Shown here piece by piece: positions 20,449-40,669 of a stretch of 63,027 bases of DNA. Under the pieces are notes generated by a model. It was given only the letters and a program-made list of their open reading frames with translations, had not been told where the DNA came from and did no database searches. Made by a program: the position numbers and the translations under genes. This DNA is from Sulfuritalea hydrogenivorans sk43H. Lineage in GTDB: Bacteria; Pseudomonadota; Gammaproteobacteria; Burkholderiales; Rhodocyclaceae. Positions within the stretch are counted from its first letter, which is position 1. Each line of letters starts with the position of its first letter. Where the stretch lies: assembly GCA_945870205.1 (NCBI GenBank), contig CAMBRI010000001.1, positions 1 through 63,027 on the forward strand. Reading direction: 5' to 3'.

Positions 20449-20454
20449 ACGTCC

Positions 20455-21168: not shown

Positions 21169-21720
21169 CTACTCAGATGTACTGGTGTCATCGAGCAGTG
21201 CGCCCTGTCCCCGCGTCAGGGAAAGCCAGACATTCGTGAGCAGTTCCGCATCCCGCAGCGCCCCGTGTAGCTGCCGGCCCGAGTTGTCGATGCCGAATTC
21301 GACGCAAAGCGCATCGAGATTGTTCTTGCGACCCGGCCGCAGGCTTCGCGCCATCTGAAGGGTATCGATTACGCGCGGGCAAAGCTCGCCAAGTCTGATG
21401 CCGCCGATCTGGCCAAGTTCATGGTCGAGGAATCCGAAATCAAAGGGAGCGTTGTGAATCACCAGTTCGGCACCCTGCACGAACTCGATGAACTCTGCGG
21501 CAATCATGGCGAAGCGTGGCTTGTCGGCCAGAAACCCGGTGCTCAGGCCGTGGATCGCCGCTGCAGCTGCGCCGACTTCCCGTTCGGGGTTCAGATACGT
21601 ATGGAAATGCCGGCCGGTGCGTCGGCGACCATACATTTCGATGCAGCCGATTTCGACGACACGGTCGCCGCTGCGGAAATCGAGGCCGGTGGTTTCAGTG
21701 TCGAGGACGATGCGGCGCAT
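21169..21720 (-). CDS. DnaQ-family 3'-5' exonuclease (DNA pol III epsilon-like)
   Basis: A 183-residue DEDDh exonuclease with ExoI DTETTGLDF (7-15), ExoII HNAPFDFGFLDHEL (about 91) and ExoIII HGALRDAELL (about 152), so all catalytic acids and the His are present. It lacks the C-terminal extension of full epsilon subunits, so it is best called epsilon-like. It is the last gene of the leftward run that begins with the kinase at 28557. Proofreading-type trimming of DNA or RNA ends is likely. Confidence 0.92.
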   Translation of the reverse strand: MRRIVLDTETTGLDFRSGDRVVEIGCIEMYGRRRTGRHFHTYLNPEREVGAAAAAIHGLSTGFLADKPRFAMIAAEFIEFVQGAELVIHNAPFDFGFLDHELGQIGGIRLGELCPRVIDTLQMARSLRPGRKNNLDALCVEFGIDNSGRQLHGALRDAELLTNVWLSLTRGQGALLDDTSTSE

Positions 21721-21735
21721 GAATGTGGGTGAGTG

Positions 21736-22242
21736 TCAGAGAGAGGATGGACTGTCGATGCACACGTTCGCGAGCCGGCCTTCATACCGATGGGCGTCGA
21801 CTTCAAGGGGCGCGTCGCGGTAGCCGTGTTCTACGATCTGCGCCAGATAGAGATCGAGAAACCGGCTCAGGTCGCCGGACTGTTCAAACTGTGCGACGTG
21901 CCGAAGCTCGTGTCGAAGAACCCTCCTGTCGCCCAGCGCGCTATGGCAAATAAGAACGGCGTAGCCCAGCGCCATGCCGGCTGACCCGCCCAGATCGAGG
22001 CCGGACTGCGTTGCCATGCTGCGGAAGTGCGGGCAATCCGGTTGCGATAGCTTCGGCACGCGCAGGATGCGCACCGCGTCGGGCCTGAGTACGCCGACCT
22101 CAAGAGCATCCGCCGCCTGACACAAGGACAATGGCTTGCCCTGCGCCAGAGCGGCCGCGTTCACACTCATGGCCCACGCCAACGTGGCCGACATGGCGTA
22201 CGGGGAAGCGACCGGCGTTCGGGTCTTGGGGGCGGGATTCAT
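21736..22242 (-). CDS. Putative metallopeptidase-like protein
   Basis: A 168-residue protein with RVLRHELRHVAQFEQ near residue 110: a HExxH-like zinc motif in the variant HELRH followed by an aromatic/Glu-rich helix, as in DUF4157-like peptidases. A downstream EVDAH segment could supply the third ligand. The N-terminus has an apolar stretch, AMSATLAWAMSVNAAALAQ, which may be a weak signal or just a helix. It lies 9 bases after the PcfJ-like gene and 15 before the exonuclease, so it is in the same operon. Proteolytic activity is inferred from the motif only. Confidence 0.6.
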   Translation of the reverse strand: MNPAPKTRTPVASPYAMSATLAWAMSVNAAALAQGKPLSLCQAADALEVGVLRPDAVRILRVPKLSQPDCPHFRSMATQSGLDLGGSAGMALGYAVLICHSALGDRRVLRHELRHVAQFEQSGDLSRFLDLYLAQIVEHGYRDAPLEVDAHRYEGRLANVCIDSPSSL

Positions 22243-24269: not shown

Positions 24270-24707
24270 TCAGAAGGGGTAGTCGTAGTCATCATCCGGC
24301 GGGGGCGGGGCGGTGCCGGCGGATGCGGGGGTTGGCCGGGAGTAGGGTGCGGGGTGCGACTCCGTACCGGAGGGCTTGCCTCCGAGCATCTTGAGCTCGT
24401 TGCCCTCGATCTCGGTGGTGAAGCGCTCCTTTCCTTCCTTGTCCTGCCACTTGCGCGTGCGCAGGCGCCCCTCGATATAGACCGCCGAGCCTTTTCTCAG
24501 GTACTCCCCGGCGATCTCGGCGAGCCGCCGATAGAGGACCACCCGGTGCCACTCCGTGGTTTCGCGCGCTTCGCCCGTCGCCTTGTCCTTCCACTTCTCG
24601 GTGGTGGCCAGGCGCAGGTTGCAGATGGATTCGCCCGAAGCGGTGGCACGCATTTCGGGATCGGCACCGAGGTTGCCGATCAGAATTACTTTGTTGACGG
24701 AGGCCAT
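24270..24707 (-). CDS. ssb: Single-stranded DNA-binding protein (second copy)
   Basis: A 145-residue SSB with the same OB-fold landmarks as the copy at 7333 ([48 protein letters not shown]) and an acidic tail, DDDYDYPF. The linker is Pro/Ala-rich. It is preceded by a 137-base gap and may have its own promoter, but lies in line with the kinase/VWA/PP2C genes. It binds single-stranded DNA and recruits partners such as the nearby exonuclease; that partnership is inferred. Confidence 0.95.
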
Positions 24708-24844: not shown

Positions 24845-25834
24845 TCATCGACGCCCCCTCCACTTACGGAACGCATCACCGGCACGGTGCAGTCCATTGA
24901 CCGCCGTCACAGCGCCAGCGGTGGCCGCCTCCGCCACCGCATCCACCACCTGGCGCCCGGTGCTCATCTGCGGCGGGCCGCCCTGCACGATCTCGACCGG
25001 CGCGCGCTTGCCGGAGTGTCCCGCCGCATTGGCGCCTTCGGCCAGGCCGCTGGCGGCCATGATGGTCTGATGGCCTTCCATCGGCATCTCCACGGGCAGG
25101 CCGTGCAGCGCCGCCGGCTGAATCAGCGCATCCACCAACAGGTGATAGGCCAGCCCGGCGCTGGTGCCGATCGCCAGGCTTTCCGTCAGGGGCCGGCCGA
25201 TCCGTGCCAGCCCGTCCCATATCGGGTCATGCCCGTGCGGCAACTTGCCATGCACCTCCGCCGCAAGATCGGCCAAGGCCAGCAGCAGGCCCTCGGCGAC
25301 GATGCCGGCGATGATCGTGTGCGTCAGCGGCGAACGGTGGGCGCCGATGCCTGCCAGAAGATCCAGGTCGGGAATGCCGCCGTTGCCGTCCAGTCCGCCC
25401 GATCCCGCCGAAAATCCGAGCAAGCCACCCAGCACCGCCGGCGCCGTGGCCTTCGGGTCGCGCACCAATGCGCGGGCCACCCCGGCCACCAGGCGCGTGC
25501 CGTCGCGGCCGAGCGAGACCGTGCCGTCGATGGCGGCGGCGGCACGGTCGCCGACGTGGGCCGAAAGTCGGCGCTGGCGGGACGCCGATAGCACGCCCAT
25601 CAGTTCGCCAAACCCGGCCCGGCCCAGCACGGTGGCCAGTTTCGCCAGACCACCGACGCGACGCCCCGCCAGCATCAGCAGTCGCCCGGCGGAACGTCCG
25701 CCCCAGCCGGTCAGCGCATCGCGTTCGAGGCGCGATAACGCGAACCCCAGCTCGGAATACAGGAGCGCGGCGCGGGATGCGGAAAAGCGCTCGGAGAATT
25801 CCTGCGTCAGCAGGCGGGCAGCGGATGGGTTCAT
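24845..25834 (-). CDS. Putative membrane-associated metal-dependent hydrolase-like protein (YdjM/DUF457-like centre)
   Basis: A 329-residue protein. Its centre reads IPDLDLLAGIGAHRSPLTH followed by apolar helices and AYHLLVDALIQP, which matches the PDxD...HRxxTHS...HxxxD pattern of the YdjM/DUF457 membrane hydrolase-like family. Around it are Ala/Leu/Gly-rich segments that may be membrane helices (near residues 130-150 and 180-200). GAGG precedes the ATG at 25834, 12 bases after the PP2C gene. The fourth gene of the kinase operon, it could be a membrane effector or sensor for the phosphorylation module. Function is not known. Confidence 0.5.
   Translation of the reverse strand: MNPSAARLLTQEFSERFSASRAALLYSELGFALSRLERDALTGWGGRSAGRLLMLAGRRVGGLAKLATVLGRAGFGELMGVLSASRQRRLSAHVGDRAAAAIDGTVSLGRDGTRLVAGVARALVRDPKATAPAVLGGLLGFSAGSGGLDGNGGIPDLDLLAGIGAHRSPLTHTIIAGIVAEGLLLALADLAAEVHGKLPHGHDPIWDGLARIGRPLTESLAIGTSAGLAYHLLVDALIQPAALHGLPVEMPMEGHQTIMAASGLAEGANAAGHSGKRAPVEIVQGGPPQMSTGRQVVDAVAEAATAGAVTAVNGLHRAGDAFRKWRGRR
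25562..25584 (+). repeat. Dispersed 23-nt repeat, copy 1 (inside a coding region)
   Basis: Contains GTCGGCGCTGGCGGGACG and is identical over 23 bases to the copy at 54426-54448. It lies within the YdjM-like gene, on its non-coding strand, where it encodes the SRQRRLS segment. Confidence 0.6.
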
Positions 25835-27549: not shown

Positions 27550-28557
27550 TTAGGCGATGATCGGTTGGGAAATGGGTTGCGAGCCGAGGTAGTCCTTCGG
27601 TTTTGGATTGGCGGGCTTGATCACGGTGTCGTGATATTTCTTGCTCATCTCGCGTTTGTAGAGCTTGAGCAGCTTGATCCACTCCGCGATCGAGGTTCGG
27701 TCGGCCGGGTTGGCGCTCCCCTCCCGGAAAGTTCGTACAAGCTGCTCCTTGAGCTTGAAGGGCAGGTGGCTCCAGATGTTGAACCACGGCCCCTTGGGAA
27801 TGCCACCACCGCCCATGCCGTAGGGAAAATGGCCGTTGCGGATGTTCTCCACGGGACTGGCCCCGCCGACAACGTCGAAAGGATGGCGACCGAGCATCAG
27901 CAACTTGAAGAGTAGGATCGCCAGCGAGAAATGCTCGCTTTCCAGAGCCCTGTCGACGCCGCCCAATTGCTTGCCCTGCAGTTCCGGCGCCAGCATGTCG
28001 GGCGCCGCCACCGGGCAGCGGAAGCGCTTGCCGCCAGCGTCGACCTGCCAGCTGTCGCAGTCGATCAGCGCGACGGTGCCGCTACCGGGATCGCACAGGA
28101 AGTTGGCCGGGTTGTAGTCCCCGACCAGCACATTGGCGGTGTGCAGTTCCTGAACGGTAGTCAGCAGGCTCAGCAGGTAGGCGACTAAGGCCGGGCGATC
28201 GAGCGACGGAAAATGCTCGCGGTAGGCCATGGCGTGGGCGAGCACCGTCATGCGCACGCCTTCGGCGCGCCGCATCGCGTAGCCGCGCCATTGCTGGCGT
28301 TCGTCGAAGACGGAAAAGCGCGGCCAGGCCAGGCCGGGATGCTGCTTGAATGCGGCGAGCTTCGGGTCGGCGGTCATGGCGTCGATCTTGGTGCGCATCT
28401 CGGCGGAACGCTTTTGCAGCACATCGGGGTGGTAAAGCTTGACCACCACGCCGGGGAAGGCCGGCACGGCGTGGACGGCAGCCTCGCCGCCGCGGGCAAA
28501 GGGCATGTCAGCCAGTTGAACGGATTCGCCAGCGGCGTTGCGGATGATGAAGGTCAT
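27550..28557 (-). CDS. Protein kinase-like protein (TerY-associated type)
   Basis: A 335-residue eukaryote-like kinase fold. A Gly-rich N-lobe segment (ARGGEAAVHAV) and VVVKLY supply the ATP Lys; VGDYNPANFL (about 145) replaces the HRD loop and LIDCDSWQ (about 163) replaces DFG, a variant seen in the kinase of TerY/PP2C triads. The C-terminal 70 residues are basic. ATG 28557 with AGGAG nine bases upstream is the start; the open frame to 28614 is rejected because it runs through the sigma-54 promoter. It is the first gene of the leftward operon. Confidence 0.85.
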   Translation of the reverse strand: MTFIIRNAAGESVQLADMPFARGGEAAVHAVPAFPGVVVKLYHPDVLQKRSAEMRTKIDAMTADPKLAAFKQHPGLAWPRFSVFDERQQWRGYAMRRAEGVRMTVLAHAMAYREHFPSLDRPALVAYLLSLLTTVQELHTANVLVGDYNPANFLCDPGSGTVALIDCDSWQVDAGGKRFRCPVAAPDMLAPELQGKQLGGVDRALESEHFSLAILLFKLLMLGRHPFDVVGGASPVENIRNGHFPYGMGGGGIPKGPWFNIWSHLPFKLKEQLVRTFREGSANPADRTSIAEWIKLLKLYKREMSKKYHDTVIKPANPKPKDYLGSQPISQPIIA

Positions 28558-28597
28558 GATCGGAATCTCCTGTGGTGTGTGGTGGTGTCTAGTAGAT

Positions 28598-28613
28598 AGC
28601 GATAGTCGTGCCA
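28598..28613 (-). promoter_or_regulatory. Sigma-54 (-24/-12) promoter of the kinase operon
   Basis: The minus strand reads TGGCACG-ACTA-TCGCT, against the consensus TGGCACG-N4-TTGCW: one mismatch, with exact GG-to-GC spacing. Transcription would start near 28587, giving a 5' leader of about 30 bases that contains the AGGAG site of the kinase gene. A sigma-54 activator gene is divergently adjacent, the expected arrangement. Confidence 0.85.
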
Positions 28614-28765: not shown

Positions 28766-28791
28766 TTGAGATAAATTAGTGATTGAGATAA
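28766..28791 (+). promoter_or_regulatory. Direct repeat TTGAGATAA upstream of the RtcR-like gene
   Basis: TTGAGATAA occurs at 28766-28774 and 28783-28791, 17 bases apart, in an AT-rich 210-base divergent intergenic region. The first could be a -35 box (TTGAGA with TAACAT 17 bases later). The pair could also be the binding site of the activator for the kinase promoter about 160 bases away. Confidence 0.4.
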
Positions 28792-28825
28792 CATTAAAGT
28801 ATTGTAAAAAAGTTATAAAAATTCC

Positions 28826-30325
28826 ATGAATGTTCTATATGCCTGGCTCGGCAAGACAGACTTGAGGGCGATCGATGGCACCGGGAAGCTCGGGCCGGTG
28901 GCCGACACCCTGCTGCACCTGCCCGTTGAGTCGCTCGACCGTGTCGTCCTCCTCTACGACCATGCCCCGGGCAAGACCCAAGAGGGTGAGCACTACGCCA
29001 GTTGGCTGAACGCGCAGTTGGCCAGTGCGAACAGGCCGGCTGCAGTCACGCTGAAATGCTTGCCAAAAACCGGCCCCGGTCAGGATCCGACCAACTACAA
29101 CTGGGTTTTCGACGCCATGCGCCGCGTCCTGGCGGAGGATTCAGCGGGTTCGCCCATCGGTCGTCGGCTTTACCTGATCGGCGGCGGTACGCCGACGATG
29201 GTTGCCTGCACGATCATCGTTTCGCGCATGGCGGCTTGCGAAGGCGAACTGTGGCAGGCGGACGAGCATGACGTGCAGCGCTGCCGCCGCCTGGAACTGC
29301 CGTTCGGCTTGCGCCTCGATGATGCGCCGGATCCGCAAAGCGGCGAGGCCGAGCGCTGGCAGAAGGCCCGCGAGCAAAGGGACGACGCGCCCGTGGTCGC
29401 CTCGCCGGCGACGCAGCGCGCCTGGCGCCTAGCCGAGCGCGCCGCCGCGAGCCGCTGGCCGGTCTTGATCACGGGCAGCACTGGGAGCGGCAAGGAAGTG
29501 CTCGCGCAACACATTTACGCCAGCAGCGGGCTGGCCGGCCCCTTTCGCGCTATCAACTGCGGCGCCATTCCGGAAAACCTGATCGAGGCCGAGCTTTTCG
29601 GTTACCGGAAAGGTGCGTTTACCGGTGCCACCCGTGACCACCCCGGCATTTTCGAAGCCGCCGGTGGCGGCATGGTGTTTCTCGATGAAGTGGGCGAACT
29701 GCCGCTGACGGCGCAGGTCAAGTTCCTGCGCGTGCTCCAGGAGGCCAAGGTCACCCGGCTCGGAGAGCGTGAAGAACGCCCCATCGACTGCCGCATCCTC
29801 GCCGCCACGCACCGCAACCTCTGGCGCTCAGTGAGCGACGGCCGCTTCCGCGAAGATCTCTATTACCGACTGGCCGGCATTCTCATCGAACTGCCGGATC
29901 TTGTCGCGCGGCCGGAGGATCTTTCCATCATGATCGATCGCTTCTGGCAGGAGATTGTCGAGGCCAACCCTGGTTTCCCAGGGCGGCGGCTGCACGACGA
30001 CGCGCGCTGCCGCCTTCTGGCCCATGCGTGGCCGGGTAACGTGCGCGAATTGCGCGCCACGCTCGCGCGCACCGCCTTTCTCGCCGAGGGGCCGGAAATC
30101 CACTCGCGCGACATCGACGCCGCCCTCGCTGGCGGCGCTGCCGCCGAAGAACCGCCGGCCGCGGCGGCGCCCGAGCCCCTGCTTGGTAGCCTCAAGGAGG
30201 CCGTGGAGGACTACAAGCGCCGGCTCGTCAGTCAGGCGCTTGCTGAGGCGCAGGGCAACCAGGCGCGCGCCGCACGCACCCTGGGCGTCTCGGCGCAACA
30301 CCTCGGTCGCCTGCTCAAGCGCTGA
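28826..30325 (+). CDS. RtcR-type sigma-54-dependent activator with CARF-like sensor domain
   Basis: A 499-residue enhancer-binding protein. Residues 1-165 form a CARF-like Rossmann domain: VLYAWLGKTDLRAI at the N-terminus and LYLIGGGTPTMVA (about 114-126), the position of the CARF ligand motif. The AAA+ domain has Walker A GSTGSGKE (about 215), the sigma-54 contact loop GAFTGA (about 263) and Walker B FLDEVGE (about 285). A Fis-like helix-turn-helix closes the protein (ARAARTLGVSAQHLGRLL). RtcR normally senses RNA-damage products and activates rtcBA, but no rtc genes are in this window. Its divergent neighbour has a sigma-54 promoter, so the kinase operon is the likely target. The start has a poor ribosome site. 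Confidence 0.88.
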   Translation: MNVLYAWLGKTDLRAIDGTGKLGPVADTLLHLPVESLDRVVLLYDHAPGKTQEGEHYASWLNAQLASANRPAAVTLKCLPKTGPGQDPTNYNWVFDAMRRVLAEDSAGSPIGRRLYLIGGGTPTMVACTIIVSRMAACEGELWQADEHDVQRCRRLELPFGLRLDDAPDPQSGEAERWQKAREQRDDAPVVASPATQRAWRLAERAAASRWPVLITGSTGSGKEVLAQHIYASSGLAGPFRAINCGAIPENLIEAELFGYRKGAFTGATRDHPGIFEAAGGGMVFLDEVGELPLTAQVKFLRVLQEAKVTRLGEREERPIDCRILAATHRNLWRSVSDGRFREDLYYRLAGILIELPDLVARPEDLSIMIDRFWQEIVEANPGFPGRRLHDDARCRLLAHAWPGNVRELRATLARTAFLAEGPEIHSRDIDAALAGGAAAEEPPAAAAPEPLLGSLKEAVEDYKRRLVSQALAEAQGNQARAARTLGVSAQHLGRLLKR

Positions 30326-30593
30326 ACACCCAATCCTCCTGCGGCAGGCCACCCGCTTGGCCGATGGTGACCACCTCGCCGGGATCGGATAGGGCAGCCA
30401 GCGCCACGCTGCCGCTCGCGCAGGTGAGCGCCGCTAGCTCGCAGAGCAGGCGGGAGTACCGCGGGACGTCGAGCACGCAGACGAACACCCTGCGTTGCAG
30501 CCGCCGGCCGTAGCGCGCGACGCAGCGCTCCACGCGCGCCCGCTCTCGGTCGTTGCTCAGATCGTAGGCGACCCAGTATTGCCGAATGCTCAT
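30315..30593 (-). CDS. cas2: CRISPR-associated protein Cas2
   Basis: A 92-residue Cas2. The first strand reads WVAYDLSNDRERARV with the conserved Asp, then RYGRRLQRRVFVCVLD. GGAG precedes the ATG at 30593, so the longer frame (30686) is rejected. With Cas1 it forms the spacer-integration complex. It lies downstream of the array and overlaps the 3' end of the rtcR-like gene by 11 bases in convergent orientation. Unusually, the array lies between cas1 and cas2. Confidence 0.9.
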   Translation of the reverse strand: MSIRQYWVAYDLSNDRERARVERCVARYGRRLQRRVFVCVLDVPRYSRLLCELAALTCASGSVALAALSDPGEVVTIGQAGGLPQEDWVFSA

Positions 30594-30678: not shown

Positions 30679-31179
30679 GCCTGCAACCCAAGTCACTGGG
30701 ATAAGGGCCGAAACAGGTGTAATGACCCACGATGGCAAGTGGTTGTTTCAAGCCCAGCTCACTGGGATACAGGCGGAAACTGCTCTCATCGACCTCACGC
30801 TGCGCATGTTGTTTCAAGCCCAGTTCACTGGGATAGAGGCGGAAACGCGTATGAAGGACGAAGAGAATGCTGTTGCGTTTCAAGCCCAGATCACTGGGAT
30901 AGAGGCGGAAACCTCAGTGGATCGCGCAGACAACAACGAGGTGTTTCAAGCCCACTTCACTGGGATACAGGTGAAAACCCCTGTGCTGCTCAATTATTTC
31001 GGCGCTAAGTTTCAAGCCCAGTTCACTGGGATACAGGTGAAAACACGGCTGGTGGCTCGTCGGCTACCGCAAGGCGTTTCAAGCCCAGTTCACTGGGATA
31101 CAGGTGGAAACGACGACCTCTGTCACCGCTATCAATGGTGCGGGTTTCAAGCCCAGTTCACTGGGATACAGGTGGAAAC
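30679..31179 (-). CRISPR. CRISPR array, 8 repeats of 36 nt, 7 spacers of 30-32 nt
   Basis: Repeats start at 30679, 30745, 30811, 30877, 30943, 31009, 31076 and 31144. On the minus strand the repeat begins GTTTCCACCTGTATCCCAGT and ends GAACTGGGCTTGAAAC. The stem CCCAGT/ACTGGG is followed by exactly eight bases, CTTGAAAC, the size and type of a Cas6-generated 5' handle. Repeats decay steadily leftward: 31144 and 31076 are identical, those from 30943 to 30745 each differ by a few bases, and 30679 is strongly degenerate. The leader is therefore on the right and transcription is leftward, with cas1 upstream and cas2 downstream. Spacers are short for a type III array. Confidence 0.97.
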
Positions 31180-31306: not shown

Positions 31307-32311
31307 TCAAGGTATCGCATCGCTCTCTTCTCCGTCAAAAACCTCAGGGCTGCGACCATCACCGTCCGCAACGAAGTCATCCGCGCTTTCCGGCCTTGCG
31401 GAAAGGAGGTTTGGGGTCCAGTCCGCCAGCGCAGACTCTTGCGTGGCATCGCGGTAGCTTTCGACCGAGCGCCGCAGGTGGGCGTGAAGCGCGAGCCCGC
31501 CGTGCCGCGGGGTGGCGTCGAGCATGCGGGTGAACGACTGCACGATGCGCATCCGCGCGTCGGTGGCGATCAGCAGCGCGCCGTCTTCCTCGACAAAGCT
31601 CTTCGCCTGCAGCACATTGAGGCTGATGAGGCGCAACACCAGCCGGTCGATGCTGGGCCGGTAGGGTTCCATCAGGTCGCTCACCAGCGCATCATGCCGG
31701 CCGTTGGCTTCATGCAGGATTCCCAGGTAGGGGTCGAGCCCGGCCAGGCGCACCACGGTGCCGACGCGGTGGCGCAGCAGTGCGTAGCCGTAGTTGAGGG
31801 CGAGATTGACCGGATCCTGGGTCTGGCCGCGGTGCTGCCGTCGCTCGAAGGCGCCGATCCGGGCGGTGCGGCCGAGCGCGGCGCGGGCGCGCTGAATCTG
31901 GGCCATGAGGTGGTGGTCGCTGGCGCTGTAGCGCTGGCGCACCAGCAAGGCGCAGGCGGCAAGCTTGGCATCGATGAGCCGGGCGGCGATGCGGGCGCGC
32001 CGGGCTTCGTCCAACCCGGTCCAGGCGCCGTGGTGCGCGGCAAGGGCGCGGTGGCGCCGGGCCTCCGCCTGCTGCCCGATGATGAACAGCGGGGCCTGTC
32101 CCGGGGTGGCCAGCAGCACGGGAATGCCTTCGCGGGCGCAGGCGTCAAGCAATGGCGTGCTGACCTGGCAGGCGGCGTGCAGCTCGATGCTGGAGATGCG
32201 CATCAGCGGCAGGCGGGCGGCGGGCGCGGCATCGTCGGCGCTGACGACGAGGTTGGCGTTGGCGAGGCTGAGCCGGGCGCCCCGCAACGCGGCGTCGAGG
32301 ACGAAAGGGCG
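31307..32311 (-). CDS. cas1: CRISPR-associated integrase Cas1 (in a different frame from the preceding cas6)
   Basis: Cas1 homology begins at RRPFVLDAALRGARL (codons from 32311) and runs to the stop at 31307. LNYGYALLRHRVG, GLDPYLGILHE (catalytic His) and ALVSDLMEPYRP (catalytic Asp) are visible. No ATG or GTG lies near the domain start; TTG 32287 is the only candidate and would clip the first strand. The upstream part of this open frame (to 32548) is antisense-like noise over cas6. The cas6 frame runs without stop into the Cas1 region, one base out of frame. The natural reading is a Cas6-Cas1 fusion split by a frameshift, or two overlapping genes with a TTG start. A long acidic C-terminal tail is present. 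Confidence 0.85.
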   Translation of the reverse strand, partial: RPFVLDAALRGARLSLANANLVVSADDAAPAARLPLMRISSIELHAACQVSTPLLDACAREGIPVLLATPGQAPLFIIGQQAEARRHRALAAHHGAWTGLDEARRARIAARLIDAKLAACALLVRQRYSASDHHLMAQIQRARAALGRTARIGAFERRQHRGQTQDPVNLALNYGYALLRHRVGTVVRLAGLDPYLGILHEANGRHDALVSDLMEPYRPSIDRLVLRLISLNVLQAKSFVEEDGALLIATDARMRIVQSFTRMLDATPRHGGLALHAHLRRSVESYRDATQESALADWTPNLLSARPESADDFVADGDGRSPEVFDGEESDAIP

Positions 32312-33114
32312 GCGTAGCCGCCGGGTGCGATGCCGGGTTCCACGGACTCGGGCGCGGCGGCCTCTTCGCGCAGGAGCAGCCGTCCCTGGGCAAAGGAGAG
32401 CCGCTCGCCCAGACCCACCGCGGAGAACAGGCCGAGCCAGGGCCGCCAGGGCGGCAGCTCGGGCCCGGAAAGGCACAGGGGGCCGACACAGCCGTTGAGG
32501 AACATTGGGTGCCCGCCTTGGGAACGCGAGCGGTGCTCGGTGCGCCAATAGCGCCAGGCCGAAACGTCGAGCTCAGGTGGTGGCGGCAGCTGCCCTTCGC
32601 GACCGAAAAGCTTGCGCAGCCGGGTCTGGCACAGGCGCTGGAAACCGGCGCCGTCGAGTGCCGTGTTCGGCGCCCCGGGCTGGTGCGGCAGGGGCACCGG
32701 GGTGAGAAAGTCAAGGCTCAGCGCCGTCCCGGCCGGGGCGTCAGGCGACCGGGCGATGCGCCAGGGGCCGACCTCGGCAAGGCTGAAGTTCGGTCCGCGG
32801 GCGGGCGCGAAACGGGCGTGGAGTTGATCCAGCCAGGTTGGGATCTGCTCGGCGCTCAGGCCGAAGAGCTGGATGGTCAGGGGAATGCGGGTGCCGGCCT
32901 GCCAGTGCAGCGCATCGACGCCGGCGCCCGGCCAGTGCCACAGCTGCTTGACCAATCGGGGGTCGAGCCGTGCGGCCTCGAAAACCCCCTTGAACAGGGC
33001 TTCCAGCACCACCAGCGGATGGGCGCGGCGCGGCGGCGCCTGGGCGACGAGCGCGAGATCGATCTCCAGCCAGGTGAGCCGCTGCAGGTCGGCGGCATCA
33101 AGCAGGGTAATCAC
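32203..33114 (-). CDS. cas6: CRISPR RNA endonuclease Cas6
   Basis: A RAMP-fold Cas6 of about 300 residues: ITLLDAADLQRLTWLEIDL at the start; FNGCVGPLCLSG-like strand (LNGCVGPLCLSGPELPP); and SAVGLGERLSFAQGRLL, the glycine-containing loop at the end. It processes the crRNA precursor at the base of the repeat hairpin. GTG 33114, 12 bases after the upstream stop, is the likely start; the frame to 33249 overlaps the previous gene. Its last 35 codons (32203-32311) overlap the Cas1 domain in another frame and no longer look Cas6-like. Confidence 0.82.
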   Translation of the reverse strand: MITLLDAADLQRLTWLEIDLALVAQAPPRRAHPLVVLEALFKGVFEAARLDPRLVKQLWHWPGAGVDALHWQAGTRIPLTIQLFGLSAEQIPTWLDQLHARFAPARGPNFSLAEVGPWRIARSPDAPAGTALSLDFLTPVPLPHQPGAPNTALDGAGFQRLCQTRLRKLFGREGQLPPPPELDVSAWRYWRTEHRSRSQGGHPMFLNGCVGPLCLSGPELPPWRPWLGLFSAVGLGERLSFAQGRLLLREEAAAPESVEPGIAPGGYAALSSSTPRCGAPGSASPTPTSSSAPTMPRPPPACR

Positions 33115-33125
33115 GTGGTGGCCAG

Positions 33126-34706
33126 CTAGGGGGCGACGAGGCGCGCTTCGAGTTCCGCCAACAGGGCCTGGTAGAGCGCCAGTGGGTCGGGGGCCGGCCC
33201 GAGCAGACTCTGGATGACATCGGCCACCAGCGGCTGAGCGAGGAAACATGTGCCGGGACGGCCGGCAGAATTACCGATGCCCTGCGACCAGAGACCGGCG
33301 TCCTTGAAGCGAAGCATGGCGTCGTCGATTTCCTGCTGTGTCATGACGCCGTGGGTGTTGTAGTTTCGGTAGTCGGAAAGCCGGAAGCGCGCGCCGGCCA
33401 GAATCTTTGGCAAATGGATGGTGTCGCGCAGCCGATGGATCGCCGCGTTGTTCAGCACCTGGTCCCAGGCATTGAGCGCTTTTTCACCGACCGTATTGGC
33501 CTGGAAGGCCAGAGGACCTGCATTCTTGCCCAACCATGGCTTGATGGCGTCACTCTGGACCAACACCGTCGGCGGTGGCGTCTTGAACAGCATGTAGCGT
33601 TTCCTCGGCTCGTGCTTGGTCAGGGCGGTCTTGGCCCAAGCGTTGATGCCGTCGTGAAAGGCGGCTTCAAGGAAGGTGAGACTTCCATTAATCGCCTCGA
33701 GCCAGTGCCCGGTCAGCAGCGCCGTTTCGACCCGTATCGCCACTAGCAGGCAGGCGGCCGTCGCCGCGTGGCCGAGCACGGACTGCAGCGCCGGCAGTTC
33801 GGCACGAGCGCCCACTGGGTTGCCGTTGATGAGGGCGGCGGCCTGCTGCAGGGGAACCACCCATGGGCGGGCATCGCGGTCGTCGTGGTACGGCGCCGCC
33901 ATGGCGAAGGTGTCGAGTAAGGCCCCGCGGCGCACCTGCTCGAGACATTGGCGGCGTACGCGCAGGGCGTCGATCGGCGTGGGCGGCAGCAGCCCAACGG
34001 CACCGTGCTCGGTCTTGAACAGGCTTTGCGCTTGGTCACCGGCCAGCAGCACCGCGATCTCGGCAAGCAGCGGCTTGATCGCAGGCAAGCCACCCATGGT
34101 GCCTATGAGCAGGTCGGGACGGCCGGCGCCGTCGTAGAAGTCGCGCACGGCGCGCTCGATCCGCTCGGCGATGGCTGGGGCGATGGGGCTGTCCAGGCGT
34201 TCCAGTCTTTCCCCGGGGAGCAGGAATATCTCTTCGCGGATGCCCGTTTCCGGCACTCCGCGGCCGATAAGCCAGTCTTTGAGGAAGGTGTAGGTGGCGA
34301 CCGGTTCCTGCTCGTCAGTGCCGCGATCGGTGCTGAGCACGAGTACCCCATTTAGGGAACCGGAATGCCGGCCCATCCAGTCGTCCAGCGCCGGGCCTAT
34401 CTTGGGCAGCACGAGTTGCAGGCGGTTGTCGGCACTACGCTCGGGCTGTGCTTTGAGACTTTTGTCGTGCGGCAACAAGCAAAAATTGTCATCCTTGACG
34501 TCCGTAAACGTGGCTTCCGCGTCGCGCGTCTGCACGTCATGAGGCAATTCGACGATTTTCGCCTCGTCGCCGTTCGCGAGTAACCATTCATGAAACATCC
34601 GCACGATGCTCTTTTCGGGGGTAGCACGCCAGCGGCGGCCCTGCTCGTCGCGGAGGATGATCTGCAGGTCGGTGGTGCCGTGGGTGATGACGAGTTGGGC
34701 GTTCAT
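33126..34706 (-). CDS. Putative CARF-HEPN ribonuclease (Csm6/Csx1-like)
   Basis: A 526-residue protein inside the cas operon. The N-terminal half looks like a CARF sensor: alternating strands and helices, with PDLLIGTMGGLPAIKPLL (about 197-214) at the position of the ligand-binding G-rich motif. The C-terminal half is helical and contains RNYNTH (about 446-451), an Rx4H motif as in HEPN ribonucleases. Csm6/Csx1 proteins are activated by cyclic oligoadenylate from Cas10 and degrade RNA. Overlap of 4 bases with the next upstream gene indicates co-translation. The assignment is from motifs and position only; the sequence is divergent. Confidence 0.55.
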   Translation of the reverse strand: MNAQLVITHGTTDLQIILRDEQGRRWRATPEKSIVRMFHEWLLANGDEAKIVELPHDVQTRDAEATFTDVKDDNFCLLPHDKSLKAQPERSADNRLQLVLPKIGPALDDWMGRHSGSLNGVLVLSTDRGTDEQEPVATYTFLKDWLIGRGVPETGIREEIFLLPGERLERLDSPIAPAIAERIERAVRDFYDGAGRPDLLIGTMGGLPAIKPLLAEIAVLLAGDQAQSLFKTEHGAVGLLPPTPIDALRVRRQCLEQVRRGALLDTFAMAAPYHDDRDARPWVVPLQQAAALINGNPVGARAELPALQSVLGHAATAACLLVAIRVETALLTGHWLEAINGSLTFLEAAFHDGINAWAKTALTKHEPRKRYMLFKTPPPTVLVQSDAIKPWLGKNAGPLAFQANTVGEKALNAWDQVLNNAAIHRLRDTIHLPKILAGARFRLSDYRNYNTHGVMTQQEIDDAMLRFKDAGLWSQGIGNSAGRPGTCFLAQPLVADVIQSLLGPAPDPLALYQALLAELEARLVAP

Positions 34707-36730
34707 GGCTTGCTTGGGTCTCCAGATTTCAGCAGTGCGGCGAGTTCGGTAAAGTTGCCTTCACCGCCACGGCGCACCTTGGCATGGGCGCGACGCAGAT
34801 CGGTGTGGTAGTTGTGGATCTTGTCCGGTGCCCCGGGGTAACTGGCCCGTCCGCTATCAGACCAGCGATGGGCGGCACACCATATTTCGAGGTGCTGTCG
34901 GGCCGCTTCGCCCATGTGCATTTCCAGACGGGCCTTGAAGGCATCGAGGCTGCTGCCGACCAGCGCATTCCATCCGGGTTCGTCGCGGCGGGCCTGCTGC
35001 CACCGCCAGCTGTCGTTTTCGTGCCAGCGCACGGCATCGAGCATGAGCCTCACGCTGCCCAGCCCCAGCGGCTTTCCGTAGCCGAGCTTGTGGGCGTAGC
35101 CCTGTGCGTGGGGATTCATGCCGTACAGAGGCTCAATCAGCGCCGGATCGATGGCCGCCAGAAGCGCGCCGAACTCCCACGGACGCAGGCTGTCGAAACG
35201 CAAGGTGCAGAGGAAGCGGCTGCCCGGGGACGACAGATAGCGTACAACTGTCCCACGCTCTTCAGCATTTTTTTCGGAATCACTTGGGACGTAGAGCCTG
35301 CGGTCTGTCTTTGCGTCAGGCTGGTGGCGGTAAAACTTCCGCCCGGCCAAATCGCCGCCCGGTTCCGAGGGCAGATCGCCGTAGGTAATGAGAGCCTTCG
35401 GTAGTGCGGTCTGCTTGAGATAGAACTCCACGGCGCTGGGGCGTGGCATGCCGAGAATCTTCAGTTGGACTTCCCGTCCGCCATCGACGAAGCGCTGCGC
35501 GTCCGTCTTGCCGGCGATGTCTTCGGTGGCGGTATTGAAGGCGAGGCGCCCGGCCAAGCGCTTGAAGCTGCCGTCGGCCAAGGATGTCTCGCTGCCCTCA
35601 AGAGCATAGCCAAACAAGAGCCGGTTGGCTGCGAGTCGTTCCGGTTGGCCAGCATCGTCTTTGCGTTCAACCGAGAGCCAATCGACTTCGCGCCTCGTCC
35701 TGCCGGCCTTCTTGACCGTATTGGAGGTATAGGCCCAGCGGTATTGATAATGGTGGCCAAAGCTGGTGACCTGTTTGGTAGTTGGGTCGTACTCGACATA
35801 GATCAATTGAAGAGGTTTCAGCGGTGCATGTTGTTTTATGGCGTCCTGAACCGCTTGCTTGTCAATCTTCTTGGCATCAGGGTGGCCGGGGGCAAGGTGG
35901 CCAATCTTGTTGTCGGCTAAAAGCCGCTGCGTCATTTCGTAATGTCGAACAACCGATGCTGGAATAGTGATTGGGCTGCGGCGGAATTTCTCAAGATTTT
36001 CGGTAGACAAAAGCACGTACTGATACGTTCTCATGTCCTCAGAAAACGCTTTGGCAAGAAGCCCTTGACCATCGATGCCGCCGGCATATGCAAGCACGAT
36101 GTGATTGAGTTCGACACGAGCGTGTCGATCCTGCTTCTTTTCTCCGCTTTCATCGCAGGTATAAGCCGGGACGAGGCTGCTTCGAAATTTTGATTTATTG
36201 TCTTCGGCATACTTTAAGCCAAGATAGGCTTTTGCTAGGGTGATACCAACTGCGGGTTCCTTCAACGCCCTCCATACCGCTGAGTTCATGAATACCACGT
36301 CACTGGTTCGTTCCAGCAGCGCAACCTTGATTCCTCCTTTTGCGTCTAGGGTGTCGAGGACAACTGCCGGACGAACCTCCCTTCGCTTGCCTGACGCGCC
36401 AAGGTTCGGTCGGTAGCTGTAATGGTGCTCGGCAACCTGCGACATCGGCGCTTGCAGCAGACCGGAAAGTGCGCCGCGCAGCATGCCCTTGAGGGATGTC
36501 GCGCCGATCAGCACGCGGCCGTCATCGAGCATTTGCGGAACCAGCGCGCTGTGCTTATCGTCGACCTTATGCTGGTGATTGCCGACGATCAGCGGGGTGA
36601 GGGCTTCCAGTGTGAGAAGGAGTTCGCCGCTGAGGCGTGGCTTGCTGCTGCTGCCGTCGCGCCACAGGGGGGCGTCATGCACGGCCTGTTCGGGCGTGAC
36701 TGGTAGGAATCCGTAGGGAATGGGTGTCAT
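34703..36730 (-). CDS. Type III RAMP protein, Cas7 with insertion (TIGR03986-like)
   Basis: A 675-residue RAMP. Near the N-terminus LLLTLEALTPLIVGNHQ and VLIGATSLKGMLRGAL are the first strand and the conserved SLKG helix of Cas7. The glycine-rich loop GYAHKLGYGKPLGLGSVRL is near residue 555. The roughly 450 residues between are a large insertion. This matches the Cas7-insertion subunit of III-Dv complexes and the TIGR03986 RAMP family of type III-D loci. It forms part of the crRNA backbone and may provide a target-RNA cleavage site. The gene overlaps its neighbours by 4 bases on both sides. Confidence 0.75.
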   Translation of the reverse strand: MTPIPYGFLPVTPEQAVHDAPLWRDGSSSKPRLSGELLLTLEALTPLIVGNHQHKVDDKHSALVPQMLDDGRVLIGATSLKGMLRGALSGLLQAPMSQVAEHHYSYRPNLGASGKRREVRPAVVLDTLDAKGGIKVALLERTSDVVFMNSAVWRALKEPAVGITLAKAYLGLKYAEDNKSKFRSSLVPAYTCDESGEKKQDRHARVELNHIVLAYAGGIDGQGLLAKAFSEDMRTYQYVLLSTENLEKFRRSPITIPASVVRHYEMTQRLLADNKIGHLAPGHPDAKKIDKQAVQDAIKQHAPLKPLQLIYVEYDPTTKQVTSFGHHYQYRWAYTSNTVKKAGRTRREVDWLSVERKDDAGQPERLAANRLLFGYALEGSETSLADGSFKRLAGRLAFNTATEDIAGKTDAQRFVDGGREVQLKILGMPRPSAVEFYLKQTALPKALITYGDLPSEPGGDLAGRKFYRHQPDAKTDRRLYVPSDSEKNAEERGTVVRYLSSPGSRFLCTLRFDSLRPWEFGALLAAIDPALIEPLYGMNPHAQGYAHKLGYGKPLGLGSVRLMLDAVRWHENDSWRWQQARRDEPGWNALVGSSLDAFKARLEMHMGEAARQHLEIWCAAHRWSDSGRASYPGAPDKIHNYHTDLRRAHAKVRRGGEGNFTELAALLKSGDPSKP

Positions 36731-37242
36731 GTGCCCGCCTCCATTGAGGGCTCTGAAAGAAGGCGCCAGGCAATCAGCCTGCCGCCCTGCAGGTAGCGTT
36801 CGACGGCCAGTTTTTCCGGAAGCTCCGGATCGGGGGCCAGGCCGAAGCGCTCGCGGTCGCGCCAGCTCAGGACCTCCTGCCGCTGACTGGCAAGCCCTTC
36901 GACACCGTCGGCACCGTCAAAAGCATCCAAGCTCCAGGTGACCACGCGCCCCGGGGTTTTGCTAAGGGGGTGGGCGTCATGGAAATGCTGCCACTGACGC
37001 CCCCAATGAATGCTCGCTTCTAGCAGAGGCAGGTCATCGAGAGCGTCAGGCAGCCGGCGCGCCAAGGGGGCGAGGCCCGGCAGGCGTCCGGTGAGCGGCC
37101 GGCCGTCGCGTTCCAGTAGCCAGGCGCGCGGTTCGAGTGAAATCCAGAGGGGCTGCAGCGACGGCCAGCGGTCGCGCAGCGTGCCGATCGTTAGCGGTTC
37201 GGTGAGAACTTGTTGGTTCACGTGCAAGGACATGTGGGTCAT
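36727..37242 (-). CDS. csx19: Csx19-like type III-D subunit
   Basis: A 171-residue acidic protein. RDRWPSLQPLWISLEPRAWL and the C-terminal DRERFGLAPDPELPEKLAVERYLQGG resemble the Csx19/TIGR03984 family, which is found only in type III-D loci. It overlaps the start of the Cas7-insertion gene and the stop of the double Cas7 gene by 4 bases each. In the cyanobacterial III-Dv complex Csx19 sits on the effector surface. Assignment relies on position, size and partial resemblance. Confidence 0.65.
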   Translation of the reverse strand: MTHMSLHVNQQVLTEPLTIGTLRDRWPSLQPLWISLEPRAWLLERDGRPLTGRLPGLAPLARRLPDALDDLPLLEASIHWGRQWQHFHDAHPLSKTPGRVVTWSLDAFDGADGVEGLASQRQEVLSWRDRERFGLAPDPELPEKLAVERYLQGGRLIAWRLLSEPSMEAGT

Positions 37243-38642
37243 GCGTTCTCTCCTTCGTGGCCAGCGCCGAGGGCGCGCACGCGCAGTCCGTCAAGTTGCC
37301 AGCGTATATGGCCGTGTCCGCGCCAGATACCGCCCCCTAGCGGCAGATGGCCATCGCCCAGCTCGTGCAAGAGTTTTAGCAGGGGTTCTGCGAGACGCTG
37401 GGCGTGACTGTCGTCGTTCGCCTCCAGGCGTGCTCGCCAGACAAAACGGGCCTTGGCGATGCAAAGACGGTCGAACTTGGCGGATCCATAGGCGCCACCG
37501 GTGAGTTCGTCGATAGCGACGTGCTGTTGTAAGAGCATCCGCCAGTTGTCGTCGGCCGGCACGGCATCGGCCACGCTGAGACAACCCGCCTTATCGGTCG
37601 ACCCGAACAGTTCGTCGACCAGCGCGGCATCCCCGCCATTGGCTCTGAAGTGGCGTTGCAGCGCGGCACGCCATACGCCGCGAATGCTGGCGCCCGGCAC
37701 GTATGGGGTGAGCCGGCCATCCGCATCAGGCATGGCGGTGATGGCGAAATCCGGATCGAAGTCTTCTGGTCGGAAAGGAACGTCCCGAGGCGGGATAACG
37801 CGGCTGAAAAACTCCTGAGCCTGTAGTTGCATACGCGCATGGCCGCCGACAGAGAGGGTGTCGAGCCCGTAACCGCGGCCGAACTCATCCTGACGTTCGC
37901 CGACGTGCAGGCTGCCGCCAAGTTCAGCTACACAGCGGCGCGCCGGCGTCAGCGCCATGCCGGTCTGGCGGCGGAACTGATCCAGATTGAAGATGCAGGC
38001 ACCTTGAGCCTGCAAGGCATCCTTCCATTCCCCGGCACTGCGCTCGGGAACCAAGGCATCCGGCCAATGTGCCGCCTGACGCTTATCAAGACGGACGATG
38101 ACGATGTCTTCGAGATGGCACCAGCCATAGCCGTGCCGCGAGCCGCGCCCGAGCCGCGCGCCACCGGGGAGCTGCCATTCGGCGAGGACGGCTGCGGCCA
38201 GAGCTTCCAAGTCGGTAAATTCGATGCCTGGCGCCGGGACGATCTCCAGCTCGAAATTCCAGCGTGTGCCGACCGGCAAGGCTTCGAGCGAGAACAAGTG
38301 GTCGTCCTTTGCGGCCTGGGTACGCGGGTCGATGCTCACGTGCTGGAAGAATGCGGTTACCGGCTCGCCGGCAAGCGGATGGGAATGGGCGAAGCGCCAG
38401 GATGAGGGGGTGAGCCCTTCTTTGTCATCGTTGTCAATGGTGATGGCGCGCGGCAGTTGACCCGCGATGCGACGTGCCGTGGCGATGAAGCTGCCTGCCA
38501 GGGTGCTGCCGCGCAGCACGGGGCGGTGGCTTCCGTCACGGGCCAGCGGCGTGTCGACCAACCCATGCGGTTGGTTGCCACCGACCGCCAGTGCGCTTTC
38601 CTGGACAATTTCGGCGAAGATGAGGGTGCGATAGGGTTTCAT
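37239..38642 (-). CDS. Double Cas7 RAMP protein (Cas7-2x)
   Basis: A 467-residue protein with two Cas7-like RAMP modules. Module 1: LIFAEIVQESALAVGG, RPVLRGSTLAGSF (about 41) and the Gly-rich loop GGARLGRGSRHGYG (about 168). Module 2: FAITAMPDADGRLTPYVPG followed by SIRGVWRAALQ (about 326) and GGGIWRGHGHIRW (about 441). Each module has the strand-G-loop layout of crRNA-binding backbone subunits. Duplication in one chain is the hallmark of the Cas7-2x subunit of III-Dv effectors. It overlaps both neighbours by 4 bases. Confidence 0.8.
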   Translation of the reverse strand: MKPYRTLIFAEIVQESALAVGGNQPHGLVDTPLARDGSHRPVLRGSTLAGSFIATARRIAGQLPRAITIDNDDKEGLTPSSWRFAHSHPLAGEPVTAFFQHVSIDPRTQAAKDDHLFSLEALPVGTRWNFELEIVPAPGIEFTDLEALAAAVLAEWQLPGGARLGRGSRHGYGWCHLEDIVIVRLDKRQAAHWPDALVPERSAGEWKDALQAQGACIFNLDQFRRQTGMALTPARRCVAELGGSLHVGERQDEFGRGYGLDTLSVGGHARMQLQAQEFFSRVIPPRDVPFRPEDFDPDFAITAMPDADGRLTPYVPGASIRGVWRAALQRHFRANGGDAALVDELFGSTDKAGCLSVADAVPADDNWRMLLQQHVAIDELTGGAYGSAKFDRLCIAKARFVWRARLEANDDSHAQRLAEPLLKLLHELGDGHLPLGGGIWRGHGHIRWQLDGLRVRALGAGHEGENA

Positions 38643-40669
38643 TTTGCAGCCTCCTGCGGGCCCTTGTCGGGGGATTGAGCGCGCACCCAGCGCACGAAGT
38701 AGTCAAGCAGACGCTGGGTGTCGGCCAAGGGCATGCCGCGTAGTTCATCGTGAAATTCGGCGCCGGATTCGACGAAGGACTTCCACGCTTTTCCGCCGTG
38801 CTTCTGGGACGCATCCTTGATGAGTTTGAACACATTGTCGATGTCTGCCGATGTGCGCGCGGCCAGAACTCGACCCCAGAAGTCACCCCATTGACTGGCA
38901 CTTGGCGTGCTTACCGCCTTGCCGAGTCGCCGCACCCAGTCGCGGGCCTGCTGGCACAGGACTTCGTCGTGACCCGGCGACACCATCGGGGCATCCGGCG
39001 GGGCATCGGGCTTGGCCGGAATAGGGAGGCCGTCGATGCGGAAGCGGCCGAAACCTTCGTCGGGGCACTCGCCCAGAGCGAGGCGGGTAGCCAGTGCCGC
39101 ACGCACTCTTGCGGCGTCCGGGCCGCCGATGCGAATCACCGACCCGGCCTTGATGGCGCGCTGGGCCATCCGAGGCAAACCGGTGGCCGCATTGAAGCCA
39201 AACAACGCAACGCCCTCGCTGAGACTCTGCTCATCGACAAGCTCGGCATGGTCGATGCCGGCCAGCGTGGCAACGGTCGCGGCGTCGATACGGTCGTGAA
39301 AGTTGCCGTAGCCATCGCGCGCGATGAGGTCGCTTTCGAGCAGCAGGGTGAAGCCTGAACCGACGGGGGTAACTGGCGTCGGCATGGGCAGCCAGCGGGC
39401 ATGTTCGATGACCAGCGGGCGGCCGCCCCGCCCGCTGCGCAGCCATTGTCCATCCAGTGCCTGAAGCACATTGCCGAGGGTTTGTGCCTGTGCGGCGTTG
39501 GTGACGATCAGGTCGGCAAGGAAGGAGGTGTTTTCGGCAATTTCTTCAGTGCTGAACAGGGCCTGTTTGCTGCCGTTTTCTGTGCTGGGTACTTGCGTGT
39601 GCAAGCGTTCAAGAATTTGTGGTCGGTAGCGTTGCCAGCTCTTGCCGGGTGCGGGCTGGAAGAGAAATTCATCAAAATTCGGGCGCTTCAATTTTTCAGC
39701 GGGGCGCTCGCCAACACCCAAAGTGATCTGGTCGACTTCGCGGCGTGCGCCCAGGCTGGCGTCGTTGCCGCCGTGGCGCGCCCACCAGGGAATTCGGCCA
39801 GCCGGTGCCATGGCCTTGGGGGTGCCGATCGACAAGGGGATCGGCAGTACCTCAAGGGAGGTTAGTTCATCGTCACAATAGGCTTCTGCTTTAGGAGGCA
39901 AGGGCAGCCCGTCTCCCCAAGCGAGGCTGGGGTCGAGCAGGCCGCGCGCCCAGTCGGCGCGGTCCAGGGCGAGGCAGGCCGCAGTGGCCGCCCCGCGCAA
40001 GCTGCGCCCTCGGATGAAGGCATCGGTGGCAATGGTGTTGCCGGGGTGACCGGTACGCGCGAGGCAAAGGGGGTCGCAGTTGCGCAGGACCAGGCGTAGT
40101 CGCGCCGGGTAGGACACCGGCAGCGCTTGGGCGGGCGATGTGTCGTTTGCGCATTCTTCAAGCCGCCAACGAACTCGGCCATGGCCGCGGTTACGCCCGC
40201 CACCCAACTGGCGGCAGCGTCCGATGATGGCGCGCAGCAACGCCACGTCATCGCCTGTGCTGCCCTGTGCCAGCGCCGCCTGCATTTCAAAGCATGCCCC
40301 GGCGGGAATGTATTCGACGAAACGCAGGGTGTCTTCCTGCGCACTGCCGGTCGATGGATCAATACGGGTGCTGCCCCACAGAAGCGGATCAAGAGACTGG
40401 TTCAGGTACCCACTGGTGAGCTGCAGGCTGCCCTGCCCCGTACCATGGCGGCCAAAAAGGTGCTCAATGCGCTCCCGTGGCATGACTTCCGAATCCAGGC
40501 GTCCCCATTCAGCAGCCGTCTCGCGCAATACGCCCTTGAGGTGACTCGCTGGCAACACAGGCCAGCCGCGCCGGTCGCGCACCTGAACGGCGTCGATATC
40601 GCCGCGGCCGGTGCCGGTGCCGATGTGCAGGTCTTCAAGAACTTCAATAGTCAGCTTCCAACGTTTCAT
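38639..40669 (-). CDS. Cas7-Cas5-Cas11 type fused effector subunit
   Basis: A 676-residue fusion. Residues 1-175 are Cas7/Csm3-like: LTIEVLEDLHIGTGTGRGD, LPASHLKGVLRETA, and the loop GGGRNRGHGRVRW (about 158). From about 190, ARLRLVLRNCDPLCLAR, IRGRSLRGAATAAC and the C-terminal CPDEGFGRFRI loop (about 550) match a Cas5/Csx10-like RAMP. The last 110 residues are helical (VLCQQARDWVRRLGKAVS to VRWVRAQ) and may be the small Cas11 subunit. The same three-part chain is known from III-Dv complexes, where it caps and lines the crRNA. It overlaps cas10 by 4 bases. Confidence 0.75.
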   Translation of the reverse strand: MKRWKLTIEVLEDLHIGTGTGRGDIDAVQVRDRRGWPVLPASHLKGVLRETAAEWGRLDSEVMPRERIEHLFGRHGTGQGSLQLTSGYLNQSLDPLLWGSTRIDPSTGSAQEDTLRFVEYIPAGACFEMQAALAQGSTGDDVALLRAIIGRCRQLGGGRNRGHGRVRWRLEECANDTSPAQALPVSYPARLRLVLRNCDPLCLARTGHPGNTIATDAFIRGRSLRGAATAACLALDRADWARGLLDPSLAWGDGLPLPPKAEAYCDDELTSLEVLPIPLSIGTPKAMAPAGRIPWWARHGGNDASLGARREVDQITLGVGERPAEKLKRPNFDEFLFQPAPGKSWQRYRPQILERLHTQVPSTENGSKQALFSTEEIAENTSFLADLIVTNAAQAQTLGNVLQALDGQWLRSGRGGRPLVIEHARWLPMPTPVTPVGSGFTLLLESDLIARDGYGNFHDRIDAATVATLAGIDHAELVDEQSLSEGVALFGFNAATGLPRMAQRAIKAGSVIRIGGPDAARVRAALATRLALGECPDEGFGRFRIDGLPIPAKPDAPPDAPMVSPGHDEVLCQQARDWVRRLGKAVSTPSASQWGDFWGRVLAARTSADIDNVFKLIKDASQKHGGKAWKSFVESGAEFHDELRGMPLADTQRLLDYFVRWVRAQSPDKGPQEAAK

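Follow-up and report, generated by a model that had tools for sequence, protein, structure and literature searches.

A predicted sigma-54 promoter before a kinase-VWA-PP2C operon and its likely control by a divergent CARF activator beside a type III-D CRISPR locus

In a stretch of 63,027 nucleotides from Sulfuritalea hydrogenivorans sk43H (the whole of it is referred to here as the window), a protein kinase-like gene and a gene for a predicted CARF-domain sigma-54 activator face away from each other across a gap of 268 bp, next to a type III-D CRISPR locus. This arrangement raises the question of what turns the kinase operon on, and in response to which signal. The initial annotation had proposed that a sigma-54 promoter drives the operon, with no mention of the CARF sensor or of the CRISPR setting. 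We argue that the kinase-VWA-PP2C operon has a -24/-12 promoter at this site, opened by the divergent CARF-AAA+-HTH activator upon a signal, and we give this reading a probability of about 0.78.

The site reads TGGCACG-ACTA-TCGCT on the minus strand, from 28613 to 28598, the strand having been left unspecified before; the sole mismatch with TGGCACGNNNNTTGCW, which has 12 fixed positions, is a C for T at -14. Both cores are whole (GG at -25/-24, GC at -13/-12) and their spacing is correct, in agreement with the original description of a near-consensus site, one base off, with exact spacing. The distance to the kinase start, put earlier at about 40 bases, is 40 nt from the end of the site to the ATG at 28557, and the AGGAG for which room had been noted lies in between (Table 1). 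By the usual sigma-54 spacing, the transcript would be expected to start near 28587. CACAGGAG precedes the kinase start in the relatives L051 and L052 as well. The ATG at 28557 is favoured over an in-frame ATG that overlaps the site, because a 75% identical kinase from another genome of the same family shares the first residue and has an AGGAG ahead of its start.

At one mismatch or fewer, the site is alone in the 63-kb window. Its being the only one of its kind in the gaps read had been counted in its favour, and this uniqueness extends to the whole window, but it is uninformative, since dinucleotide shuffles of the window (n = 30) contain 1.03 such sites on average and at least one in 19 of 30 cases. 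A consensus scan of the window for -24/-12 sites returns this single site at that stringency; at three mismatches or fewer 97 matches are observed against 123 expected. Genome-wide, the exact pattern TGGCACGNNNNTCGCT occurs twice, compared with three occurrences of a backward control, and the TCGC variant (C at -14) is rare, found in 2 of 71 family sites. When only the gap of the site is shuffled, one mismatch or fewer is reached on either strand in 5 of 2000 trials. The match to the consensus and the uniqueness among the gaps read, on which the first argument relied, are thus insufficient by themselves, and the reading is supported on other grounds: as judged from sequence comparison, the site is more than chance through its position, its orientation and the comparative evidence given below. 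Apart from the site, the gap contains one direct repeat (TTGAGATAA at 28766 and 28783), a candidate activator-binding site only; a search of the gap for inverted repeats of at least 8 nt found none. Two IHF-like matches with one mismatch each lie in this AT-rich gap and were given no weight.

Table 1. Positions in the window of the predicted promoter, the kinase operon, the divergent activator and the CRISPR neighbour
Feature	Position	Strand	Basis or remark
-24/-12 sigma-54 promoter TGGCACGACTATCGCT	28598..28613	-	sequence match, predicted
AGGAG ribosome-binding site	28567..28571	-	9 nt before kinase ATG; read from sequence
Sigma-70-like promoter match for activator gene, TTGAGA-17-TAACAT	28766..28794	+	overlaps direct repeat TTGAGATAA
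Protein kinase-like gene, 335 aa, first of proposed operon	27550..28557	-	Pfam Pkinase E 1.4e-5, under curated cut-off
VWA domain protein, 218 aa	26812..27468	-	Pfam VWA E 5.4e-8; DTSGS motif; 81 nt after kinase
PP2C phosphatase, 321 aa	25847..26812	-	Pfam PP2C_2 E 5.1e-35; 1-nt overlap with VWA gene
329-aa protein	24845..25834	-	no match in Pfam, PADLOC, NCBIfam
Single-strand DNA-binding protein (SSB), possible operon member	24270..24707	-	Pfam SSB E 3e-38; 137 nt after previous gene
PcfJ-like protein, 595 aa	22252..24039	-	Pfam PcfJ E 4.7e-7
168-aa protein, possible distal operon gene	21736..22242	-	sub-threshold eCIS_core match
DEDDh exonuclease, possible last operon gene	21169..21720	-	Pfam RNase_T E 2.1e-33; PADLOC DEDDh
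CARF-AAA+-HTH sigma-54 activator, 499 aa, divergent from kinase operon	28826..30325	+	PADLOC RtcR_PspF2 E 1.2e-122, residues 1-498
Cas2	30315..30593	-	Pfam CRISPR_Cas2 E 2.2e-8
CRISPR array, 7 repeats of ~36 nt	30745..31179	+	degenerate copy just before, 30687
Type III-D cas genes	31307..42219	-	Cas1, weak Cas6, CARF_m10 effector, Cas7_IIId, Csx19, Cas7_IIId, Csx10/Cas5_IIId, Cas10
CARF_m10 effector	33126-34706	-	
Cas10 with GGDD	40666-42219	-	

The kinase-like gene, whose product contains the motifs VVVK, DYNPAN and DCD, heads a row of genes on one strand that continues with those for the VWA protein, the PP2C phosphatase, the 329-aa protein, SSB, the PcfJ-like protein, the 168-aa protein and the DEDDh exonuclease. 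The operon comprises the kinase, VWA and PP2C genes and probably those for SSB, the PcfJ-like protein and the exonuclease; because of the gap before the SSB gene, a transcript shared by it and the distal genes is only possible. As in the TerY-P triad, VWA, PP2C and kinase components all occur in the window with their core motifs, the kinase below the Pfam cut-off. The window differs from the triad in that the kinase comes first and in that Pfam gives no domain beyond the kinase domain, the zinc ribbon or OB fold described in the available part of PMC11090510 having been sought at its C-terminus. Homologs of the PcfJ-like gene also occur close to CARF activators, on the same strand in L091 and L103 and on the opposite strand in L127. 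The region from 13842 to 21104, read by eye, has the look of a defence island, with a phosphatase-ADP-ribosylglycohydrolase-like fusion, SbcD- and SbcC-like genes and a toxin-antitoxin-like pair.

The divergent gene encodes a protein with intact Walker A (residue 217) and GAFTGA (residue 263) motifs, a Pfam Sigma54_activat match (E 6.5e-61) and a Fis-type HTH, and the same genome has one match to rpoN (E 2.2e-65). A model of its first 175 residues alone (pLDDT 85.5) has the CARF fold, and its best PDB match is Csm6 in complex with an analogue of cyclic hexa-adenylate (E 5.9e-6); the 50 PDB entries listed for this model are all, by their names, what we take to be CARF proteins. When viral contigs were searched with the CARF domain, nothing matched. 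The layout is like that of RtcR and rtcBA in E. coli, where the genes for a CARF-AAA+-HTH activator and a sigma-54 operon diverge and the gap between them contains a TGGCACG-N4-TTGC site. Used as a positive control, the same scan of the E. coli rtcR//rtcBA gap gives a perfect divergent site (0 mismatches), in agreement with the sigma-54 control of rtcBA stated in the accessible part of PMC9650030. In contrast to E. coli, the activator of the window is flanked by the kinase gene and Cas2 and not by rtcA or rtcB. An assignment as RtcR proper was rejected: the NCBIfam RtcR score is 276 bits against a cut-off of 650, Pfam RtcR is unmatched, PADLOC scores RtcR_PspF2 far above RtcR, and rtcBA is missing from the neighbourhood.

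The comparative evidence comes from relatives of this activator. Genome searches matched in 4 of 399 genomes of the order and 7 of 369 of the class, the own genome being in both, and 6 loci were used from them, plus one plasmid; of 204 relatives found by a scan of an 84,980-species collection, 80 were kept. Weak CARF matches in G633, G714 and G732 (E ~0.005) were dropped, having no match to the activator. Counts were made on the 70 nonredundant, complete and flanked loci among the 87 collected (7 + 80); the rule was suggested by the first 7 loci, and 63 of the 70 counted are fresh. The 17 loci left out are L089, a duplicate of L045, and 16 that are truncated, short or without flanks (L057, L058, L059, L062, L065, L072, L074, L077, L080, L085, L093, L108, L113, L118, L122 and L136); six of them (L057, L074, L077, L093, L108 and L122) have a site with two mismatches or fewer in the expected place.

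In 57 of the 70 loci, a -24/-12 site with at most two mismatches either follows the activator gene directly or stands before it in the divergent direction; 14 of these have both. Right after the activator stop and on the same strand, 31 loci have a site at one mismatch or fewer (permuted-pattern mean 0.00, maximum 0) and 50 at two or fewer (permuted mean 0.45). The divergent position, as in the window, is occupied in 13 loci at one mismatch or fewer (permuted mean 0.07, maximum 1) and in 21 at two or fewer (permuted mean 1.90). On the wrong strands, after the stop and before the start respectively, the counts are 0/70 and 0/70 at the stricter threshold and 0/70 and 4/70 at the looser one, and inside the activator gene they are 0 and 0, then 5/70 and 1/70 (control means 0.47 and 1.77). 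After collapsing of the loci at 70% identity, a site is present in 32 of 41 clusters at two mismatches or fewer and in 23 of 41 at one or fewer. Together with the divergent activator and rpoN, this recurrence lends in silico support to the original proposal that the site drives the kinase operon. On a Rhodoferax plasmid, VWA-PP2C-kinase genes follow an activator of the same family, and a 1-mismatch site lies ahead of these genes.

The tested intervals are without a site in 13 of the 70 loci (L047, L079, L086, L095, L096, L097, L099, L114, L125, L127, L128, L131 and L135); in L079 and L114 a 1-mismatch site lies just outside the interval. L047 (G320:C11:221949-225555) has its activator last in an apparent operon with thymidylate-kinase-like and GreA/GreB-like genes, and a perfect sigma-54 site ahead of that operon. 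A sister pairing of the window activator with that of L047 (99/91) was set aside as a suspected meeting of long branches: when either is dropped, the other becomes basal without support.

The genes behind the family sites are varied. Type I restriction genes (HsdR/HsdM homologs, found with probes from L049 that carry HSDR_N, HsdM_N and Methylase_S domains) start within 700 nt downstream in 35 of the 70 loci. VWA-PP2C-kinase homologs follow in L044, L050 and L129, at a distance of 3.9 kb in the last, and PcfJ-like genes in L091 and L103; among divergent cases, the first genes as read by eye are ATPases (L069, L071, L075 and L079) and an SSB (L061).

In 36 of the 70 loci (L045, L083, L084, L091 and others) the site begins no more than 5 nt past the stop codon of the activator, so that an upstream binding site would have to fall within or before the activator gene. 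The palindrome ACAAGA-N2-TCTTGT occurs before the activator start in 23 of 70 loci at two mismatches or fewer (permuted palindromes mean 1.15, maximum 7), against 2, 0 and 0 of 70 in control intervals, and all 26 of 26 matches in the 210-nt interval fall between -48 and -25. It was seen at about -25 and/or -45 in L048, L069, L071, L075, L078, L110, L112, L120, L126 and others. In clusters outside its discovery set its support, judged by such matches, is moderate: 6 of 33 at two mismatches or fewer (permuted mean 1.10, maximum 6; 1 of 29 permutations as high), 3 of 33 at one or fewer (mean 0.10, none as high) and 13 of 33 at three or fewer (mean 6.45, 1 of 29 as high). The palindrome is possibly the binding site of the CARF activators themselves. 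It was rejected as the binding site of the window, where it is absent (the best match has 4 mismatches) and where the HTH recognition helix of the activator differs from that of the family.

From the site, the layout, the activator domains, rpoN and the recurrence of the layout among relatives, all of them read from sequence, we infer activation, the direction of control, a binding site and a ligand as follows. Sigma-54 RNA polymerase would be held closed at the promoter; the divergent CARF-AAA+-HTH protein would bind its signal and assemble on the DNA of the shared gap, and its GAFTGA loop would open the promoter. The defence operon would be off by default and come on in response to a nucleotide or RNA that is linked to infection and recognised by the CARF domain. 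As a promoter of the kinase operon, the site is the best reading and well supported in silico; the product of the divergent gene is likely to be its activator, and it probably switches the operon on during infection, which we propose because a switch of this kind is often found next to other defence genes in relatives of the activator.

Relatives show the same placement and orientation beside a sigma-54 activator, and shuffling of the gap gives such a match on either strand in 5 of 2000 trials; both make it unlikely that the match is accidental, with another promoter, of the sigma-70 type or not, serving the kinase operon and the activator acting elsewhere, even though the shuffle counts for the window and the backward control for the genome speak for such an accident. 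So do a weak sigma-70-like match on the minus strand inside the gap (28744-28715, 9/12) and the kinase triad relatives L051, L052 and L053, with no site at one mismatch or fewer in the 148, 400 and 400 nt scanned upstream; the best one in L051, the nearest kinase relative, has 2 mismatches and lies within an apparent upstream coding region. A slightly smaller chance is given to a real promoter that answers to another cellular activator, or to a divergent activator that mainly controls itself or the CRISPR genes. Cells usually hold several sigma-54 activators, and no activator-binding site is proven in the window, but the adjacency of site and activator gene in 57 of 70 relatives argues for a pairing of the two. 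The related activator of G320 may control itself, since it ends an apparent operon behind a perfect site. Control of the CRISPR genes is opposed by the lack of any other site at one mismatch or fewer in the window, and hence of any before the cas genes.

As to the signal, the neighbouring CRISPR locus was typed: Cas10d, Csx10, Cas7_IIId and Csx19 genes were all found, and a type III-B label was rejected in favour of III-D. A gene for a WYL-domain regulator lies near these cas genes, at 44708-45712 (+). Close Cas10 relatives occur in four other genomes, G466 and G517 among the 369 of the class and G320 and G303 among the 399 of the order, with weak matches in G718 and G261. The CARF type of the window activator was found near the III-D locus in three of these four (G320, G303 and G466), in one of the three as a sigma-54 activator: that of G320 lies ~8 kb from a CARF_m10 gene and 20 kb from Cas10, while G303 and G466 have CARF proteins with a degenerate AAA part and an HTH less than 3 kb from Cas10. 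G517 has no CARF match and, ~11 kb from Cas10, a match to the AAA domain of the activator only. In the order sample, this CARF type occurs in 3 of 149 other genomes at E <= 1e-10 and in 9 of 149 at E <= 0.01; Fisher's p for 3/4 is 1.3e-4 and 1.4e-3, respectively, in a post hoc comparison conceived after G320 had been seen. With a profile of activator CARF domains, these III-D CARF proteins score higher (46.1 and 43.6 bits) than RtcR of E. coli (33.7 bits). In 42 kb at the III-D locus of a Thiodictyon plasmid nothing matched the window activator; a 1-mismatch site lies there at 373275, about as many as chance would give.

Two III-D loci related to that of the window contain genes for single-subunit RNA polymerases of 1022-1025 aa (L152:13279-16347 (+) and L144:7869-10946 (-)), with Pfam RNA_pol matches of E 3.4e-61 and 4.1e-60; mitochondrial and T7 enzymes are among the PDB matches of the L144 protein. 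Both genes adjoin a gene for a CARF protein with a degenerate AAA part and an HTH, and the CARF_m10-Cas10 genes. It would be striking for a type III CRISPR locus to have a polymerase of its own, and among the papers listed by one literature search none concerned such an enzyme by its title.

A different ligand is quite conceivable: at somewhat below even odds, the activator senses tRNA halves and not a CRISPR messenger. RtcR binds tRNA halves with cyclic phosphate ends through its CARF domain, according to the available text of PMC7790460. In the flanks of the 87 activator loci (up to ~8 kb on each side in most) there is no match to the cas genes of the window, and a Cas1 probe found nothing in them, though it matched weakly in G320, G303 and G466 and on the Thiodictyon plasmid; type III RAMP genes are present in only 16 of the 50 genomes examined, a raw count that stands without a background rate. 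The motif after strand 4 of the window activator is GGGTPTM, without the K/R that a CARF survey, in its accessible part, ties to nucleotide binding (PMC4012209). Weighing against the tRNA ligand is the above excess of this CARF type near III-D loci (3/4 vs 3/149), itself post hoc and with two of the three proteins not sigma-54 activators. Judged by fold and neighbourhood, the signal that sets off sigma-54 transcription may be a CRISPR messenger. In the full form of this idea, which we hold only tentatively and regard as doubtful, the III-D complex would make cyclic oligoadenylate on recognising its target. Once this is bound by the CARF activator, the kinase-VWA-PP2C-SSB-PcfJ-exonuclease operon would be transcribed through sigma-54, giving immunity a second wave at the level of transcription. 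On a wider view, activators of this CARF sigma-54 kind would form a portable sensor-plus-promoter cassette before many different defence operons.

Csa3 is a CARF-wHTH protein and no sigma-54 activator. It is a transcription factor that binds cyclic tetra-adenylate, as stated in the available part of PMC8844856, and the window activator would resemble it as a transcription factor that responds to the messenger of type III systems. For RtcR-like CARF proteins in the vicinity of restriction systems, control through sigma-54 was predicted earlier (PMC4012209), and such proteins were associated with CoCoNuTs carrying TerY-P (PMC11090510), as the accessible portions of these papers state. The window activator resembles those proteins in its domain make-up and in the association with TerY-P and defence operons; it differs in being divergent in sequence, in lying beside a III-D CRISPR locus and in facing a kinase-first row with SSB and PcfJ-like genes. 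The available portions of both papers do not describe target promoter sites for RtcR-like CARF activators. Among the papers listed by literature searches, none had a title or beginning of abstract on a sigma-54 promoter that responds to the messenger of a type III system; these searches largely covered neither preprints nor subscription papers, which makes them weak evidence of absence.

The recurrence of the site beside the activator in most of the counted loci makes the predicted control of defence genes testable by a reporter, and the ligand can be tested in the same way. Should the ligand prove to be the CRISPR messenger, sigma-54 would provide type III immunity with a transcriptional arm. 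The setting of the window connects CRISPR signalling with sigma-54 in a way that can be tested and that may be surprising.
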